Shown here in pieces: positions 11,885-35,074 of a stretch of 40,249 nucleotides of DNA. The translations under genes and the position numbers were made by a program. This DNA comes from a virus, in the IMG/VR virus record IMGVR_UViG_3300012936_005227, positions 1-40,249 of that record. One strand, 5' to 3'. The notes beneath the pieces were generated by a model. It worked only from the letters and a program-made list of their open reading frames with translations, had not been told where the DNA came from and made no database searches. Within the stretch, counting starts at the first letter, position 1. Each line of letters begins with the position of its first letter.

Positions 11885-12775
11885 ATGCACAAAAAGATTA
11901 ATTTTGTGGAGTTTTATATTACCAATGTGTGCAATATTGCTTGTGACGGCTGTAATAGATTCAATAACCTGAAACTTACTGGACATGACAACTGGACAGA
12001 ACACTTGGCATCTTATGAAAACTTCGCCAAGTCAGTAGACGTAACCGGGTTTGTGAACATCCTAGGCGGCGAGCCTTTAATGCATCCAAAAATAAACACC
12101 ATACTTGCTGACCTAAGGCGTATCTTTCCTGAAAAAGGTATCAGGATTTGCACCAATGGATTATTGTTGCATAAAATTAAAGGCTTCTGGGACAGCGTTG
12201 TAGAAAACAAAATTATCCTCGACATAAGCATACATAATTCTTCATGGAGGAAAAATATATATGAAACACTTTGTAGTCTCACAGGAGAGAAAGTAAAACT
12301 AAAATGGACACTTGAGTCAAGGAACAGAATGGCAGAATTTATGCACAAAGAAGTTAAGCATATTATTCACCTTTCGGATAGGTTTTATCAAAACGCTTTT
12401 GGAGATCCATATTCCAAGGATCTGAAACCTTATGATAGTGACCCCGAAGAAGCACATAGAGTATGTGATTTCAGGCATAGATCACATGGCATAGAAACAC
12501 ATAGTCCTACAATAATGAATGGCAGGCTGTTCAAATGCCCAATGGCAAATTCAATGCCTATAGCAATAAGGCAAAGGAATGATATTCAATATAGTGAAAA
12601 GCAAAAAGATTTAATTGACACTTTTCCTTATTTTGAATGTAGTGAATTGCACAATATCACAGTAGATGAATTCAATACACTGATGTACGATACGATACCT
12701 CAATGTTCTTTATGTCCGGTCAGATACGATGACCAGTCTATCTCAGATCAACAAATAAGTAAAAACTTATTCTAA
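11885..12775 (+). CDS. Radical SAM protein
   Basis: 296 residues. A canonical radical-SAM cluster motif is present as C16-x3-C20-x2-C23 (NVCNIACDGC), followed by VNILGGEPLMHP, the GGE SAM-binding motif, and ICTNG (strand 4). The C-terminal third contains further cysteines (VCDF, FKCPMAN, FECS, CSLCP), arranged like a degenerate SPASM/twitch domain that could hold a second iron-sulfur cluster. SPASM-type enzymes modify peptides, sugars or cofactors; the substrate is unknown. Late promoter fused to its start. It is the first gene of an accessory block rich in sugar and oxygenase functions. Confidence 0.8.
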   Translation: MHKKINFVEFYITNVCNIACDGCNRFNNLKLTGHDNWTEHLASYENFAKSVDVTGFVNILGGEPLMHPKINTILADLRRIFPEKGIRICTNGLLLHKIKGFWDSVVENKIILDISIHNSSWRKNIYETLCSLTGEKVKLKWTLESRNRMAEFMHKEVKHIIHLSDRFYQNAFGDPYSKDLKPYDSDPEEAHRVCDFRHRSHGIETHSPTIMNGRLFKCPMANSMPIAIRQRNDIQYSEKQKDLIDTFPYFECSELHNITVDEFNTLMYDTIPQCSLCPVRYDDQSISDQQISKNLF

Positions 12776-14337: not shown

Positions 14338-15255
14338 TTACTTCAAATTTTGTTTCCAAATATCTATAGTGTAATCTAACCCATCGGACAACGACTTTTT
14401 AGGAGTCCATCCTATTTTTTGCTCAATAAGTTTGTTATTTGAATTCAACCAGTATATTTCACCCGGCCGCTTTGGCTTTGTGTTCCAATTTACTTGTCCC
14501 GACCAACCAATTTTTTCTGCAATCATATTAACATACTCTTTAATTTGTATTGGATTATCAGGTCCAATAGTGAACGTATATCCTTGATTGCACTTTTCAT
14601 GTGAGGTAATCACTTGTTGCCATACGTCCATCATGTCCTCTATGAATATGAAATTACGATATGGTTCACCATAACCAAGGTTTATTTCTTTTGAGTTTGT
14701 CAACATTTGTGTGATGATCTGCTCAGTGACAAAAAAATCATTGTCTTTCCTACCATAGCAGTTTGTTTGTCTCAATGCCGTGTATGGAAGTCCCAGGCAA
14801 CGATGTGCATACTCCAAATATTTTTCACACCCGTACTTCGCAACGGCATATGGTGCATTAGGGTTTGGTGCAGTGTTTTCATCAAATGCAACATGTGTTT
14901 TTGGTTTGCCATGTAATTTAATTTCATCTGATATAGGTTGCCAGCCATAAACTTCCATTGTGCTGGCGAAAACAAAGTTTTTGAAATTTTTTATCTTTGA
15001 TGCCGCTTCTATGAGATTGACTGTGCCAACATAATTGATTTCACTGAAAGTGATTTGTTCATAAAAACTTTTTTCAACTTCTGTCCTCGCGGCAAGGTGC
15101 ACAATGATATCTGGATTTATGACAGCAACTTCTTCTTGTATTTTAGCATGATCCAATAGATCATTTTTTAAATGATATAATTCAAAATTTTTGTCTAAAA
15201 ATTTGGTCAAATGCTGACCTATGAAGCCTGAACTGCCTGTTAGAAGTAATTTCAT
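14338..15255 (-). CDS. NAD-dependent epimerase/dehydratase (sugar-nucleotide modifying SDR)
   Basis: 305 residues, full length for an extended short-chain dehydrogenase. Rossmann motif GSSGFIG (7-13), NPDIIVHLAA strand (48-56), catalytic FASTMEVYG (96-104, with Ser98/Thr99), and YAVAK (Tyr136, Lys140). The C-terminal part (RNFIFIEDMMDVWQ, KPKRPGEIYW) is typical of enzymes acting on GDP-, UDP- or CDP-sugars. The substrate cannot be assigned. Minus strand with its own perfect late promoter, so a late function such as altering phage or host glycans is likely. It neighbours a carbohydrate-cluster-type oxygenase gene. Confidence 0.85.
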   Translation of the reverse strand: MKLLLTGSSGFIGQHLTKFLDKNFELYHLKNDLLDHAKIQEEVAVINPDIIVHLAARTEVEKSFYEQITFSEINYVGTVNLIEAASKIKNFKNFVFASTMEVYGWQPISDEIKLHGKPKTHVAFDENTAPNPNAPYAVAKYGCEKYLEYAHRCLGLPYTALRQTNCYGRKDNDFFVTEQIITQMLTNSKEINLGYGEPYRNFIFIEDMMDVWQQVITSHEKCNQGYTFTIGPDNPIQIKEYVNMIAEKIGWSGQVNWNTKPKRPGEIYWLNSNNKLIEQKIGWTPKKSLSDGLDYTIDIWKQNLK

Positions 15256-15758: not shown

Positions 15759-16889
15759 TTATTCCCAACTTTGTTTGCCTTTTTTAGGCACACCAAAATT
15801 CAAGCAGTATCTTATTTTTTCTAAATCTTCTTTTGTCTTAAGGAAGCAAAGTTCATTGGCAAAATGAAGTTCCACACCGTTATCCAAGGCCAGTTGTAAT
15901 AATTCGTCCCTGCGTTCAGCATCGTCTGTGAGACTGAACATACTGGTTAAAACTATGCCGTCGGGTTTTTTCTGTATAAAGTGTTCTAATGCTGGTTGCC
16001 AGTCTGCATGTTCATTCTCAAACTCATAACTTGAATACTTTATATTATATTTTTCACAATATTGATTGATCACTGTTCTTTGCATAGGCAACGGAATGTG
16101 TTTGCTGTATACACTGTTCCATCCAGCATATGTTATAAATTGTTTCCCTGTGTAATCAAAGTTTTGTCCGGCTGTGTGATCACCAGGCATCCTGACAAAG
16201 CCACCAGGTAGTCGTCTATCATATTCTTCGCCTTCGAGTAAGATACGCATGTCTATTGCAACTCTGGTGTAACCTTCGTCGTTGTTAATGTTTCCATGCA
16301 TATGCTCTTGCCAGAATAAATGACTTTGTCCTGGAACTAATTCTACTGGCCATGCGGCTTCTAAACAAACTTCTTCAAACTTGTCCAAGGTCCATTTTTC
16401 TTTCAAAAACCTTTGTGTTATCTCACGGCTCTTGTCCCAGTCAATAAAGAAAACAGAATTTGTTTTTTCTGCCTTTGTTAGTGGAGTCCAGAATGTTCTA
16501 ATCCCTCTACCGTTGCCCACAAACACACCTTGATGAAACTGTAATCGCCTTCCTGACTTTGTTTGATTAGGTATAACGACACGTAAGGTTCCTTGCCTTT
16601 GGATCATATACCTCTTGTTATCTATCCTGGGTGGAGCATACTCCGCCACAAAGGCATCAAACAACTCCATAAAGTCCTTTCGTGAACAAGCATTCTGTAC
16701 GTACAACTGCAATTCGACAACCTGGGGAGGGGTAAGCACCTCGTGAATTTTTTCTAGTTCTTTTACTTGTGGAAATTTTTCTTGTATTGTACGTAGTGCC
16801 CAGCCTGGCAAATCGTATTTTTCTAAATCATAATTCAAGGTCATGTTGTCCCAGTACTTGGCAACATTGTCTAACATCCAATTGTTCAT
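15759..16889 (-). CDS. Fused 2OG-Fe(II) oxygenase-like and 'sporadic carbohydrate cluster' (LIC12192-type) protein
   Basis: 376 residues. Residues about 1-245 resemble the 2OG-Fe(II) oxygenase of 'sporadic carbohydrate clusters': QFHQGVFVGNG (118-126), FWTPLTKAEKTNSVFFID (133-150), and HMHGN...TRVAIDMR with distal His198 and Arg209. Residues about 250-365 resemble the small LIC12192 family of the same clusters (IPLPMQRTVINQYCEKYNI, GIVLTSMFSL, LHFANELCFL). These are normally two genes; here they are one. The first metal motif reads H119-Q-G121 where H-x-D is expected. Minus strand, with a strong taggag ribosome-binding site and a late-type motif at 16911-16917. Family assignment is from remembered patterns. 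Confidence 0.65.
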   Translation of the reverse strand: MNNWMLDNVAKYWDNMTLNYDLEKYDLPGWALRTIQEKFPQVKELEKIHEVLTPPQVVELQLYVQNACSRKDFMELFDAFVAEYAPPRIDNKRYMIQRQGTLRVVIPNQTKSGRRLQFHQGVFVGNGRGIRTFWTPLTKAEKTNSVFFIDWDKSREITQRFLKEKWTLDKFEEVCLEAAWPVELVPGQSHLFWQEHMHGNINNDEGYTRVAIDMRILLEGEEYDRRLPGGFVRMPGDHTAGQNFDYTGKQFITYAGWNSVYSKHIPLPMQRTVINQYCEKYNIKYSSYEFENEHADWQPALEHFIQKKPDGIVLTSMFSLTDDAERRDELLQLALDNGVELHFANELCFLKTKEDLEKIRYCLNFGVPKKGKQSWE

Positions 16890-16910
16890 ATTTGCTCCTA
16901 ATTTTGAAGA

Positions 16911-16975: not shown

Positions 16976-17653
16976 ATGGCAGTTAATACACTTTACATTT
17001 TTGGTGACAGTCATTGTTTACCATTTAAAATCAAAGACAAAAAGCAAGGATGGGACAGTCTGCTTGCCGATAGATTAGGCATGGATATAAAGAACTTCTC
17101 CCAACCCGGGGCAGACAATATGTTTATTTTCTCAACATTTTTGGCCAACCAAAAGGAAATTAAAAAAGGTGATGCTGTTGTAATAGGGTGGAGCCATCCA
17201 TCTAGGAAAACTTTTATCCTAGATCAAAACAAAATCACGGAATTGGCCAAAGATAGCATGATCTATGACACGCCAAATGGGCAATTTGTAAGAAGCAAGG
17301 GAGTACCCAGACACAAAGATACACTTGAAAAATGGTTAGGCATGACGCCTATCAACTCTGGAGTTGCCTTTTACGACAATTGGTATGAAAACTATTACAG
17401 TCTTACAGAGCAGAAGATCAATTTTGAAGGGTTTATCAATGCAGTAAAACATAAACTGCAAGGCATAGACTACGTGCCGTTTTATTTTAGTGAGGACAGC
17501 ATTGAATCAATAGCGGACACAGATAAAGGCATGTGTATTGCAGAATTCATACAGAAGCATGATGTAACTTTGAGCGACGACGATGCACATATGAATGTAA
17601 AAGGTCACAAGATGTGGGCAGATAAAATTTACGAGGATTTACAATATGATTGA
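16976..17653 (+). CDS. SGNH/GDSL-like hydrolase
   Basis: 225 residues from the ATG at 16976; a TTG one codon upstream is in frame but would not be transcribed from the late promoter. Block I is YIFGDSH (7-13, Ser12 nucleophile), followed by FSQPGADNMF (block II Gly), VVIGWSHPSRKTF (block III-like) and a C-terminal DDDAHMNVKGH (block V Asp-x-x-His type). SGNH enzymes remove acetyl or acyl groups from sugars and lipids. Beside the epimerase and oxygenase genes, action on a surface glycan is plausible. Confidence 0.65.
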   Translation: MAVNTLYIFGDSHCLPFKIKDKKQGWDSLLADRLGMDIKNFSQPGADNMFIFSTFLANQKEIKKGDAVVIGWSHPSRKTFILDQNKITELAKDSMIYDTPNGQFVRSKGVPRHKDTLEKWLGMTPINSGVAFYDNWYENYYSLTEQKINFEGFINAVKHKLQGIDYVPFYFSEDSIESIADTDKGMCIAEFIQKHDVTLSDDDAHMNVKGHKMWADKIYEDLQYD

Positions 17654-18140
17654 AGGTAAAATACCCGTGACCTGGAAAAAAACAGACTACAAAAAAGGTG
17701 CCTGGCGAAGTTATTACGATCATTTTACTGGATTTACGACCACTAAGGCAAACCGAGAGACATACAAAAGTAATATGGGTGTGCATTTAAAAAATGAAGT
17801 ACCTACAAGTTTGCTTGATGTGGTAAAAGATAATTTCGAGTTAGACAAAATTGTAATTGCACTCAATAAACTTTCTCCAGGACAAATCCTGCCATGGCAC
17901 AAAGACAGATATCTCACCTACATTAAAAAAAATAAAATCAAAAAAAAGAATCAGATTGCTAGAATAATACTTTTCTTGGAAGATCAGACACCAGGACAGC
18001 AATTATGGGTAGGAAAGAAACTATGCACTGGCAAGGCTGGTGCTTATTTTGGGTGGATGTATGGCACAGAGCATATGGCCGCAAATCTTGGTAAAACGGA
18101 TAGGTACACTTTACAAATCACTGGTATTAAAAAGGCTTAA
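17646..18140 (+). CDS. 2OG-Fe(II)/aspartyl-hydroxylase-like oxygenase
   Basis: 164 residues, overlapping the SGNH gene by 8 nt. The facial triad is visible: GQILPWHKDRY with His85-x-Asp87, and MYGTEHMAANLG with distal His143, followed by Arg153 (TDRYTLQITG) for 2-oxoglutarate. The central RIILFLED strand supports a double-stranded beta-helix fold. The site is intact, unlike that of the fused oxygenase upstream. It may hydroxylate a protein side chain or a small molecule; the substrate is unknown. A Lys-rich insert (KKNKIKKKNQ, 94-103) is unusual. Confidence 0.7.
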   Translation: MIEGKIPVTWKKTDYKKGAWRSYYDHFTGFTTTKANRETYKSNMGVHLKNEVPTSLLDVVKDNFELDKIVIALNKLSPGQILPWHKDRYLTYIKKNKIKKKNQIARIILFLEDQTPGQQLWVGKKLCTGKAGAYFGWMYGTEHMAANLGKTDRYTLQITGIKKA

Positions 18141-18992: not shown

Positions 18993-20189
18993 GTGTCAGA
19001 TTACACCAAATCAAACATGTGCCACTTGCCTTGGACAGGCATAGAAATAGGTACCTCCGGAGATTACAGACCGTGCTGTCTATATAGAGATCCTATAGGA
19101 GATTACAACGCAATGACACATTCTGTGTCTGATGTGATGCAGTCAAAAGAAATGGAACAACTGCGAGAGGACTTCAGAAAAAACAAACGTCCTGCAGGCT
19201 GTCAGTCATGCTGGAAAGAAGAAGCCGCAGGCAAAAAATCTAAGCGTATCCTGTTGTGGGAGAAATCACGGACACTTGGTGAACTGCACGTAAAGAAAGA
19301 ACAGATATCTACACGATATTTAGAAATAAGGTTAGGTAATATTTGCAATTTGAAATGTAGAATATGTTATCCTGGTAGCAGTTCACTATGGGCAAACGAG
19401 GCGATAAAATTATATCCGGAGGACAAAGAAAAGTATCTTGAAATCAATGAGATATCTAGATGGCCAAGAAAACAAAACAAATTATTTGCCGAGATAGATG
19501 AAGTGTTAAAAAATCTTAGGTACTTGCAGATTACAGGCGGCGAACCACTGTTGATACAAGAACAATTTGACGTGTTACGTAAATGTATTGCACTAGGAGT
19601 GGCAAATAAAATAGAAGTTCATTACAATACAAATGGCACAGTGTATCCAGAAGAAGCGTTAAAAGAAATATGGCCTCACTTCAAACGAGTGGAAATTGCT
19701 TTCAGCATAGATGACATCAAGGATAGATTTGAATATCAAAGGCATCCTGCTAAATGGGATCAAGTGAATGCTAATATCAAAAAAATATCTGCCCTTAATT
19801 TGCCAAACATCAGCACACAGATTTGCACAACATTAAGTTTTTTTAATGCGTATTACTTGGATGAAATGGCCCAACAGGTTGAAGAATGGAACCCGGATTA
19901 CTGGCATATCAATTGCCTTCATCTTCCCAAAAGGTATGACGTACAACATTTGCAACCATACATGAAGAACATAATAGTAGAAAAGTTATTAAAATGCAAA
20001 GTCAGGAAAGAAGAAATACAGACAGCAATAGGTTATATTAAGGGCGGTCCAAAATACACGTCAGATGATCTTCTAATAACCGCAAGAAATACAATAAAAC
20101 AGATCGATTCTGTCCGTAATGAAGAATATCAGCAGGTGTTTCCTGAATTTTACAATGACGTGTTAGAATCTGTTGGTAATAATCAATAA
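18993..20189 (+). CDS. Twitch-domain radical SAM protein
   Basis: 398 residues from a GTG; an ATG at 19017 is the alternative and would still keep the first cysteine motif. The N-terminal twitch domain has CHLPW (C10), YRPCCLYRD (C28, C29) and GCQSCW (C70, C73), expected to bind an auxiliary iron-sulfur cluster. The radical-SAM core follows: NICNLKCRICYP (C118-x3-C122-x2-C125), LQITGGEPLL and YNTNG. N-terminal-twitch radical SAM enzymes occur in phage and surface-glycan clusters; substrates are not established. No Shine-Dalgarno is evident. Confidence 0.8.
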   Translation: MSDYTKSNMCHLPWTGIEIGTSGDYRPCCLYRDPIGDYNAMTHSVSDVMQSKEMEQLREDFRKNKRPAGCQSCWKEEAAGKKSKRILLWEKSRTLGELHVKKEQISTRYLEIRLGNICNLKCRICYPGSSSLWANEAIKLYPEDKEKYLEINEISRWPRKQNKLFAEIDEVLKNLRYLQITGGEPLLIQEQFDVLRKCIALGVANKIEVHYNTNGTVYPEEALKEIWPHFKRVEIAFSIDDIKDRFEYQRHPAKWDQVNANIKKISALNLPNISTQICTTLSFFNAYYLDEMAQQVEEWNPDYWHINCLHLPKRYDVQHLQPYMKNIIVEKLLKCKVRKEEIQTAIGYIKGGPKYTSDDLLITARNTIKQIDSVRNEEYQQVFPEFYNDVLESVGNNQ

Positions 20190-20857: not shown

Positions 20858-21076
20858 ATGCAAACAGTAATAAAAGTAATAGCAGAACACCTTGATGTGG
20901 CAGAGAGCAAAGTAACACCCGAGGCACATTTAGTAGACGACTTAGGAGCAGATCCGTTTGATACAATAGAATTGTGCATACAAGTTGAGAAGGCTACAGG
21001 TGTAAAAATTTCAGAAGACGATGGTGACAAAGTACAAACCGTGCAAGATCTAATCAACCTAGTGGAGAAAAAATAA
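20858..21076 (+). CDS. Acyl-carrier-protein-like protein lacking the phosphopantetheine serine
   Basis: 72 residues, ACP length. The family core is plain: HLVDDLGADPFDTIELCIQV then EKATGVKISEDD. ACPs have D-S-L at the 4'-phosphopantetheine site (DLGADSLDTVEL in E. coli); here it reads D32-P33-F34, codons gat ccg ttt, so the attachment serine is proline. The protein should therefore not carry an acyl chain. It might mimic apo-ACP to bind ACP partners. It sits 1 nt after the gene before, and its stop overlaps the start of the nuclease gene (TAATG). Confidence 0.75.
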   Translation: MQTVIKVIAEHLDVAESKVTPEAHLVDDLGADPFDTIELCIQVEKATGVKISEDDGDKVQTVQDLINLVEKK

Positions 21077-33570: not shown

Positions 33571-33927
33571 ATGAGAGCATCACAATTTATAAATGAAAAT
33601 ATAGACTCAGACGCAGTAAACGAACTAGATACGTTCATCATGAACAATGAAGATCTGTATCGTAGACGTTTTATGCCTATCATATCTAACATCAAAAGAA
33701 AAATAAAAAAGAACGTGTACGACCATGAGAAAGCACAAAAACTTTGGATGTATCTAGTAGATGATGCCGCAAAAGAATATGTCAAGGAATATGGATCTAC
33801 ACAGGATGACGTGTCAAACATGTTCCCAAAAGAAACTAGACAGCAGGTAGCAAGAGTCATATCAGACAGAGAATTAGAAAATATAAAGCAAGGCGAATAC
33901 GATGTACCTCAGGGAACTGTTTCTTAA
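33571..33927 (+). CDS. Conserved phage protein with a capsid-targeting-like N-terminus (118 aa)
   Basis: Begins MRASQFINEN, close to the T4 internal-protein targeting sequence MKTYQEFIAE including the I-x-E cleavage-type site (I7-N-E9). The rest is helical (DLYRRRFMPIISNIKRKIKK; KLWMYLVDDAAKEYVKEYG), basic and soluble. Late promoter directly at the start. It may be an internal head protein. It overlaps the next gene by 26 bases. Family otherwise unnamed. Confidence 0.55.
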   Translation: MRASQFINENIDSDAVNELDTFIMNNEDLYRRRFMPIISNIKRKIKKNVYDHEKAQKLWMYLVDDAAKEYVKEYGSTQDDVSNMFPKETRQQVARVISDRELENIKQGEYDVPQGTVS

Positions 33928-35074
33928 GGAGGACGATCGTTCAACAGCAGTCTTTGCCTTTGGCCGATTTAATCCACCAACTATAGGACATAAAAAATTA
34001 TTAGACAAACTTGAGTCTATGGCTCAGCAAGTGAATGGCAAAGCATTCCTATTCCTATCACACAAACAAAACAATAAAACAGATCCACTTACACACAAAG
34101 AGAAAACAGACTACTTAAAAATGTTTTATCCTAACCTGGCAATAGGTGACCCGGGTGTTAAGACAATAATCCAAGCACTACAAAAAATACAAGCAGAGGG
34201 CAGAACAAGGATAGTCATGATTGCAGGATCCGACAGGGTAGTAGAATTCCAAAAATTACTTAACCAATATAATGGTAAACCTGACAAAGCCGGTAATGAA
34301 CTATACAAGTTTGATTACATAGACGTTGTAAGTGCTGGTGAGAGAGATCCAGACCAAGAAGGGGCATCAGGTGCCTCGGCATCAAAAGCCAGAGAACTTG
34401 CAAACAAAGGACAAGAACACGAATTTTCTAAAATCATAATGGGCGGAAACACTGGTAAAAAGTTATATGACATAATACAAGACAGACTTGGTAAGCAGAT
34501 TGACGAGAACAACAAAAAGTTGTATAATGAAAACATGGAAGACGCAAAACCTATTGTATATCTTGACATGGACGGGGTATTGGCCGATTTCTTCGGTGGT
34601 GTTGAATATCTTTATGGTGTCGATCATTGGAAAGAACTAACCAACGATAAAACAAAAGATTTGAAAAAACAGGTAATTGACAGAATCACCGGGACAGACT
34701 TTTTTGCAGTGTTGCCTAAATTTTCAACCGCTGACGCTTTAATAGACATGGTGAAAAAATTCACAGGTGGAAAGTTCAGCATCAACACATCACCTTTAAG
34801 AGGGGATCATGAAAATTCAGCAAAATACAAAAAAGTATGGATCTCTAAAAACATTGAGCAACCAGATGAAATTATCGTAACAGGCCGTAAAGAATCATAT
34901 GCCAAAGACAAAGGTACAGGCACACCAAATATTCTTATTGACGACAGACCTATCAACATACAGAGGTGGCAGGACGCTGGCGGATATGGAATACTATATC
35001 AAGCAAATAGAGACTCATTAGACAAAGTTAAGAAAGGACTAGAAGGATATGCCAAAATACAGCGGAATCAATAG
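33902..35074 (+). CDS. Nucleotidyltransferase (cytidylyltransferase-like) fused to a HAD/5'-nucleotidase-like domain
   Basis: 390 residues. The start MYLRELFLKEDD resembles a capsid-targeting sequence with L8-K-E10. Residues about 15-200 are an adenylyl/cytidylyltransferase: FGRFNPPTIGHKKL (HxGH-type motif) and SGASASKAREL (the SxSxxR motif). Residues about 218-390 are a HAD phosphatase of 5'(3')-deoxyribonucleotidase type: VYLDMDGVLADFF (nucleophile D-x-D), NTSPLRGDHEN and ILIDDRPINI. It could join and split nucleotide or NAD-type metabolites. Cyanophages have similar 'cytidylyltransferase' genes. Overlaps the genes on both sides. Confidence 0.7.
   Translation: MYLRELFLKEDDRSTAVFAFGRFNPPTIGHKKLLDKLESMAQQVNGKAFLFLSHKQNNKTDPLTHKEKTDYLKMFYPNLAIGDPGVKTIIQALQKIQAEGRTRIVMIAGSDRVVEFQKLLNQYNGKPDKAGNELYKFDYIDVVSAGERDPDQEGASGASASKARELANKGQEHEFSKIIMGGNTGKKLYDIIQDRLGKQIDENNKKLYNENMEDAKPIVYLDMDGVLADFFGGVEYLYGVDHWKELTNDKTKDLKKQVIDRITGTDFFAVLPKFSTADALIDMVKKFTGGKFSINTSPLRGDHENSAKYKKVWISKNIEQPDEIIVTGRKESYAKDKGTGTPNILIDDRPINIQRWQDAGGYGILYQANRDSLDKVKKGLEGYAKIQRNQ

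Follow-up and report, generated by a model that had tools for sequence, protein, structure and literature searches.

The gene at positions 15759-16889 (minus strand) of the IMG/VR virus record analysed here, a stretch of 40,249 bases referred to below as the window, encodes one protein in which a 2OG-Fe(II) oxygenase-like domain is fused to a LIC12192-like domain. The Asp of the metal-binding H-x-D motif is replaced by Gly, and this H-x-G motif is a fixed trait of the whole clade of fused proteins, beyond chance. Because the rest of the site is intact and under strong selection, the best reading is an active two-His Fe/2OG tailoring oxygenase. Its chemistry would more likely be of the hydroxylation type than halogenation, with an amino- or guanidino-sugar or a similar compound as substrate; a probability of about 0.5 is assigned to this reading. 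The features of the gene are as follows.

15759-16889, minus strand: fused protein of 376 amino acid residues, 2OG-Fe(II) oxygenase-like and LIC12192-like domains (ORF, NCBIfam, AF2)
16895-16899, minus strand: AGGAG ribosome-binding site of the fusion gene (sequence)
16242-16775, minus strand: TIGR04324-like, phytanoyl-CoA hydroxylase-type double-stranded beta-helix domain, residues 39-216 (NCBIfam, fold matches)
15807-16130, minus strand: TIGR04323 (LIC12192)-like domain, residues 254-361, with a probable resolvase-like alpha/beta fold (NCBIfam, BFVD)
16527-16535, minus strand: H119-Q120-G121, proximal metal motif without the carboxylate (sequence and alignments)
16305-16307, minus strand: E195, clade-specific acid of the HxG proteins in the turn preceding H198, sole candidate replacement carboxylate (159/160; alignments, DSSP)
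16296-16298, minus strand: H198, distal metal histidine (alignments; 160/160 in the motif-independent rescan)
16263-16265, minus strand: R209, presumed 2-oxoglutarate-binding Arg (alignments; 160/160 in the same rescan)

Domain composition and predicted structure

The ORF begins with ATG and has 376 codons and a stop, with the same coordinates as in the original prediction. In the NCBIfam profile search, residues 39-216 match TIGR04324 (SpoChoClust_2, the sporadic carbohydrate cluster 2OG-Fe(II) oxygenase; E 1.2e-19, 70.9 bits), and residues 254-361 match TIGR04323 (SpoChoClust_1, the LIC12192 family; E 7.1e-12, 45.3 bits). Both matches are clear, but they lie under the NCBI curated cut-offs of 150 and 55 bits, respectively, and the protein is therefore a relative of the two families and not a member by the NCBI rule. 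Further fused phage proteins score 67-78 bits with TIGR04324. The distal His, the 2OG Arg and the core are common to the fusion and TIGR04324; the differences are the HxG motif, the fusion itself and an identity of only about 20%. The counterpart of TIGR04323 is here a C-terminal domain and not a separate gene. The original prediction had described a fusion of two sporadic carbohydrate cluster families that are normally apart, and this description holds: both match within one ORF, and they are usually encoded by two overlapping neighbour genes. Neither Pfam nor PHROGs has a family or model for the protein, and a search of PDB sequences with the single sequence gave no match, while the family profile gave weak matches to PHYH and PtlH. 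No publication naming the TIGR04324 or TIGR04323 families was found in the literature searched.

The AF2 model of the fusion has a mean pLDDT of 93.5 and a pTM of 0.89. Its N-terminal domain is predicted to have the PhyH-type double-stranded beta-helix fold, and superposes on PtlH with Z 14.5 and an rmsd of 3.5 Å over 210 residues. PtlH and phytanoyl-CoA hydroxylase also resemble the fusion in the H-Q-[D/G] spacing, the distal His and the Arg; however, they keep the Asp and have no LIC12192-like domain.

Viral serine recombinases and resolvase N-terminal domains are among the BFVD matches of the model (119-135 columns, E 7e-5 to 4.5e-4). These matches are assigned to the C-terminal domain by their length, which suits that domain. 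Comparison of the LIC12192 profile with a resolvase profile gave a weak result (P 0.03, probability <1%). From the fold match alone, the C-terminal domain may be read as a resolvase-like alpha/beta fold, and a recombinase function is not implied. The LIC12192 domain of the TIGR04323 family appears to resemble the N-terminal fold of serine recombinases.

The metal site

The family profile aligned with PHYH (2A1X) and PtlH (2RDN) pairs H119-Q-G121, H198 and R209 with the H-Q-D motif, the distal His and the 2OG Arg of PhyH. The first of these positions reads H-S/A-D in the bacterial homologues. The two metal His residues and the 2OG Arg are found at PhyH-homologous positions by sequence alignment, while the complete H-x-D...H...R pattern of TIGR04324 is absent, the Asp being Gly in all fused members. 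The loss of Asp and the retention of H198 and Arg209 had both been proposed originally, and are confirmed by these alignments.

HQG was found in 17 of 17 close viral relatives collected with patterns outside the motif, and in 186 of 186 fused viral records from broader scans (185 F-HQG and one M-HQG), some of which duplicate one contig. The first two large scans used patterns containing FHQG, with a possible sampling bias. This bias was rejected as the source of the uniform motif, since a motif-independent rescan gave the same outcome. Its alignments begin after the motif; from 168 rows, 8 of them cut, 160 were readable, and all 160 carry H-x-G (156 HQG and 4 HKG), none H-x-D/E, with the distal His and the Arg kept throughout. 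For the total set, 144 of 146 distinct sequences longer than 200 residues are H-x-G, and no reversion to H-x-D was seen among these approximately 144 distinct HxG proteins.

Unfused relatives and evolution of the clade

The unfused relatives are different. The bacterial TIGR04324-type proteins that were compared have H-[A/S/T]-D in 16 of 16 cases, in a bacterial sample that covers the Pseudomonadota and one class within it; the Leptospira clusters after which LIC12192 is named belong to another phylum. Three viral contigs (L223-L225, two of them nearly identical) carry unfused TIGR04324-type proteins with HGD or HSD; the protein of L223 scores 276 bits, over the cut-off, and a separate TIGR04323-type gene lies just downstream in all three. 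The Asp is thus kept in 19 of 19 unfused homologues. Since the fused proteins have H-x-G and the unfused ones H-x-D, the fusion and the loss of Asp coincide in this sample.

In bacterial operons (L096-L101) the TIGR04324- and TIGR04323-type genes overlap by a few bases, and for this reason the joining of overlapping neighbours would be the simplest origin of the fusion. Another bacterial operon (L116) contains an epimerase, a split transketolase, two DegT-type aminotransferases and a methyltransferase. Among cellular assemblies, the fusion was met on a single contig, in a Pelagibacter MAG (L019); this is most simply a phage contig because its gene order is that of viral contig L023. A protein-level search of an isolate phage collection (50,697 phage records) gave no match to the fusion.

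In a tree of the oxygenase domain the HxG proteins form one clade, split from the HxD proteins at 100/100 support by a very long branch. Two subfamilies can be distinguished, I with GNGRG, which includes the window protein, and II with mostly [N/K]NGRGQG-like sequences; the identity between the two in this domain is about 50%. In several phages (L004, L005, L007/L022 and L008) two divergent fusion paralogues, one of each subfamily, lie on opposite strands a few kb apart. The median pairwise omega of the HxG proteins is 0.057, which corresponds to purifying selection. Gly121 is encoded by all four Gly codons, and together with the low omega this indicates that the Gly itself is kept by selection.

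Residues L116, H119, W134, P136, F192, H198, N200, N203, T208 and R209 are common to HxG and HxD proteins. The HxG clade is marked by a block of switches, D121G, A/S120Q, D/E126N, S/T127G, Y/F129G, D109Q, S114R, N/T195E and N213D, written on the assumption that HxD is ancestral, and the loop 109-129 is coherently remodelled. From the sequences this looks like remodelling rather than decay. Simple decay is unlikely, because there is a single clade under purifying selection with the rest of the catalytic core kept. The degenerate protein offered originally as one option is accordingly improbable, the other site residues being invariant across two subfamilies as divergent as I and II.

Gene neighbourhood

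The window contains tail/baseplate, clamp-loader and other phage genes. Two neighbours of the fusion are the following.

14338-15255, minus strand: NAD-dependent nucleotide-sugar epimerase/dehydratase, the nearest gene on the same strand (profile matches)
17646-18140, plus strand: second, canonical H-x-D 2OG oxygenase (cluster c1), a recurrent neighbour of the fusion (Pfam, neighbour clusters)

The epimerase/dehydratase is the commonest fusion neighbour in subfamily I phages. In a first set of 84 loci, mostly of subfamily I, the epimerase occurs in 49, c1 in 46 and a StrB-like amidinotransferase in 35. Among 72 loci of a second set, mostly of subfamily II, 56 have a PLP enzyme (c8), 55 the amidinotransferase (c5) and 51 c1. 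In subfamily II, 32 loci show the exact order fusion-c1-c8-c5; the genes overlap, the median spacings being -22, -1 and -11 bases. Loci L174, L182 and L216 are examples of this four-gene operon. The c5 protein matches inosamine-phosphate amidinotransferase StrB (1BWD) with E 6.6e-79. The c8 protein has a fold-type I aminotransferase signature, a weak match to HisC and a conserved LSK...RxGxR stretch, and c1 has H-x-D...H in 64 of 64 proteins. No c5 or c8 gene is present in the 40-kb window, and the link to guanidine chemistry therefore comes from the loci of relatives.

The isolate cyanophage S-SCSM2R (PQ898602.1, L256) has a distant amidinotransferase adjoining a 2OG oxygenase, with glycosyltransferases around them; this arrangement is in favour of a glycan-type setting. 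Distant amidinotransferases adjoining 2OG oxygenase or radical SAM genes are seen in Campylobacter phages CP220 and CPt10 as well as in S-SCSM2R. The window itself encodes two radical SAM proteins (18993-20189 and 11885-12775), the first of which passes the NF033640 cut-off (331 against 170 bits), a phage acyl carrier protein (20858-21076; NF002148, over the cut-off), and a single ORF with a cytidylyltransferase-like and a 5'-3' deoxyribonucleotidase-like part (33902-35074).

Possible function

The original prediction regarded loss of the carboxylate as the hallmark of Fe/2OG halogenases. This is not supported: human AspH is a proven hydroxylase with an HXG two-His site, and FIH with Asp changed to Gly retains some activity (PMC10947486), while the D414G variant of prolyl 4-hydroxylase is neither hydroxylase nor halogenase (PMC2767507). 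The motif alone therefore decides nothing, although the AspH and FIH examples indicate that HxG can support hydroxylation. The fusion is like AspH in having two His and a Gly for the Asp. However, the two belong to different families, and the Pfam search gave no match of the fusion to PF05118 (AspH) up to E 1.

A radical halogenase, with chloride bound in the missing-Asp site and transferred to the substrate, is unlikely in our judgement. The fusion shares the HxG/A...H motif and the fold class with CurA Hal, SyrB2, WelO5 and BesD, a single D-to-G change from HxD is sufficient to reach this motif, as in the plant enzyme DAH, and both the invariant Gly121 and the remodelled metal-proximal loop are compatible with it. 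The CurA halogenase domain also fills the top five places of the Foldseek comparison with the PDB, SyrB2 and CytC3 coming lower. However, in a control with the model of a bacterial HxD homologue (pLDDT 88.6), CurA Hal and SyrB2 rank third and fourth in an almost identical list. The ranking thus says nothing specific to halogenation, and was rejected as evidence. VIA-align of the fusion model places hydroxylases first, and the NCBIfam matches of the fusion up to E 1 include no halogenase family. The more elaborate proposal of a widespread phage halogenase lineage, acting on a guanidinylated amino-sugar or amino-acid-like intermediate from a phage mini biosynthetic operon, appears more doubtful still.

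Alternatively, the protein might have no catalytic activity of its own and serve the adjacent oxygenase c1 as a scaffold or regulatory partner. The lost carboxylate speaks for this, as does c1, which has an intact HxD site and in many loci directly follows the fusion as an overlapping gene. Against an active fusion, TauD and P4H lose their activity together with the Asp (PMC2767507). An inactive partner nevertheless seems improbable in view of the invariant distal His and 2OG Arg, the surrounding core common to the HxD family, and several loci without an adjacent c1. A shifted carboxylate, with E195 standing in for the Asp in what would still be a 2-His-1-carboxylate hydroxylase, is the least likely of these possibilities. 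E195 is invariant in a comparison of 174 proteins, none of the 19 HxD proteins has an acid at its position, and it lies in the turn 194-197 directly before H198 (DSSP on the AF2 model). Against it, L383, a homologue intact in other respects, has Ser at this position, and alignment places Leu of PHYH and His of PtlH there. The other clade-specific acid, D213, was rejected as a substitute ligand, because PtlH with its intact HQD site carries an Asp there; the acid does not compensate for the loss.

The preferred reading, an active two-His oxygenase, can be outlined as follows. A phage-specific Fe(II)/2-oxoglutarate enzyme would have formed by joining the overlapping genes of the bacterial TIGR04324-TIGR04323 pair. 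H119 and H198 would coordinate Fe(II), R209 would bind 2OG, and the vacated Asp site would be occupied by water, as in AspH, or by another small ligand. The enzyme would oxidize a C-H bond, hydroxylation or a related oxidation being likelier than halogenation. The substrate may be an amino- or guanidino-sugar, a cyclitol or an amino-acid-like intermediate made by the neighbouring phage enzymes, namely the epimerase, the PLP enzyme, the StrB-like amidinotransferase and the second 2OG oxygenase. GDP-sugars specifically, as first suggested, found no support in this analysis. The resolvase-like C-terminal domain may serve to dock a substrate carrier or a partner protein.

The replacement of HxD by HxG in these proteins is a natural experiment in the choice of chemistry by Fe/2OG enzymes. 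A clade of uncultured aquatic phages has fixed both the loss of Asp and the gene fusion, often beside an HxD oxygenase, a PLP enzyme and an amidinotransferase. The locus offers a compact, testable system for distinguishing halogenase from hydroxylase, and the operon points to an undescribed phage tailoring of a guanidino compound.
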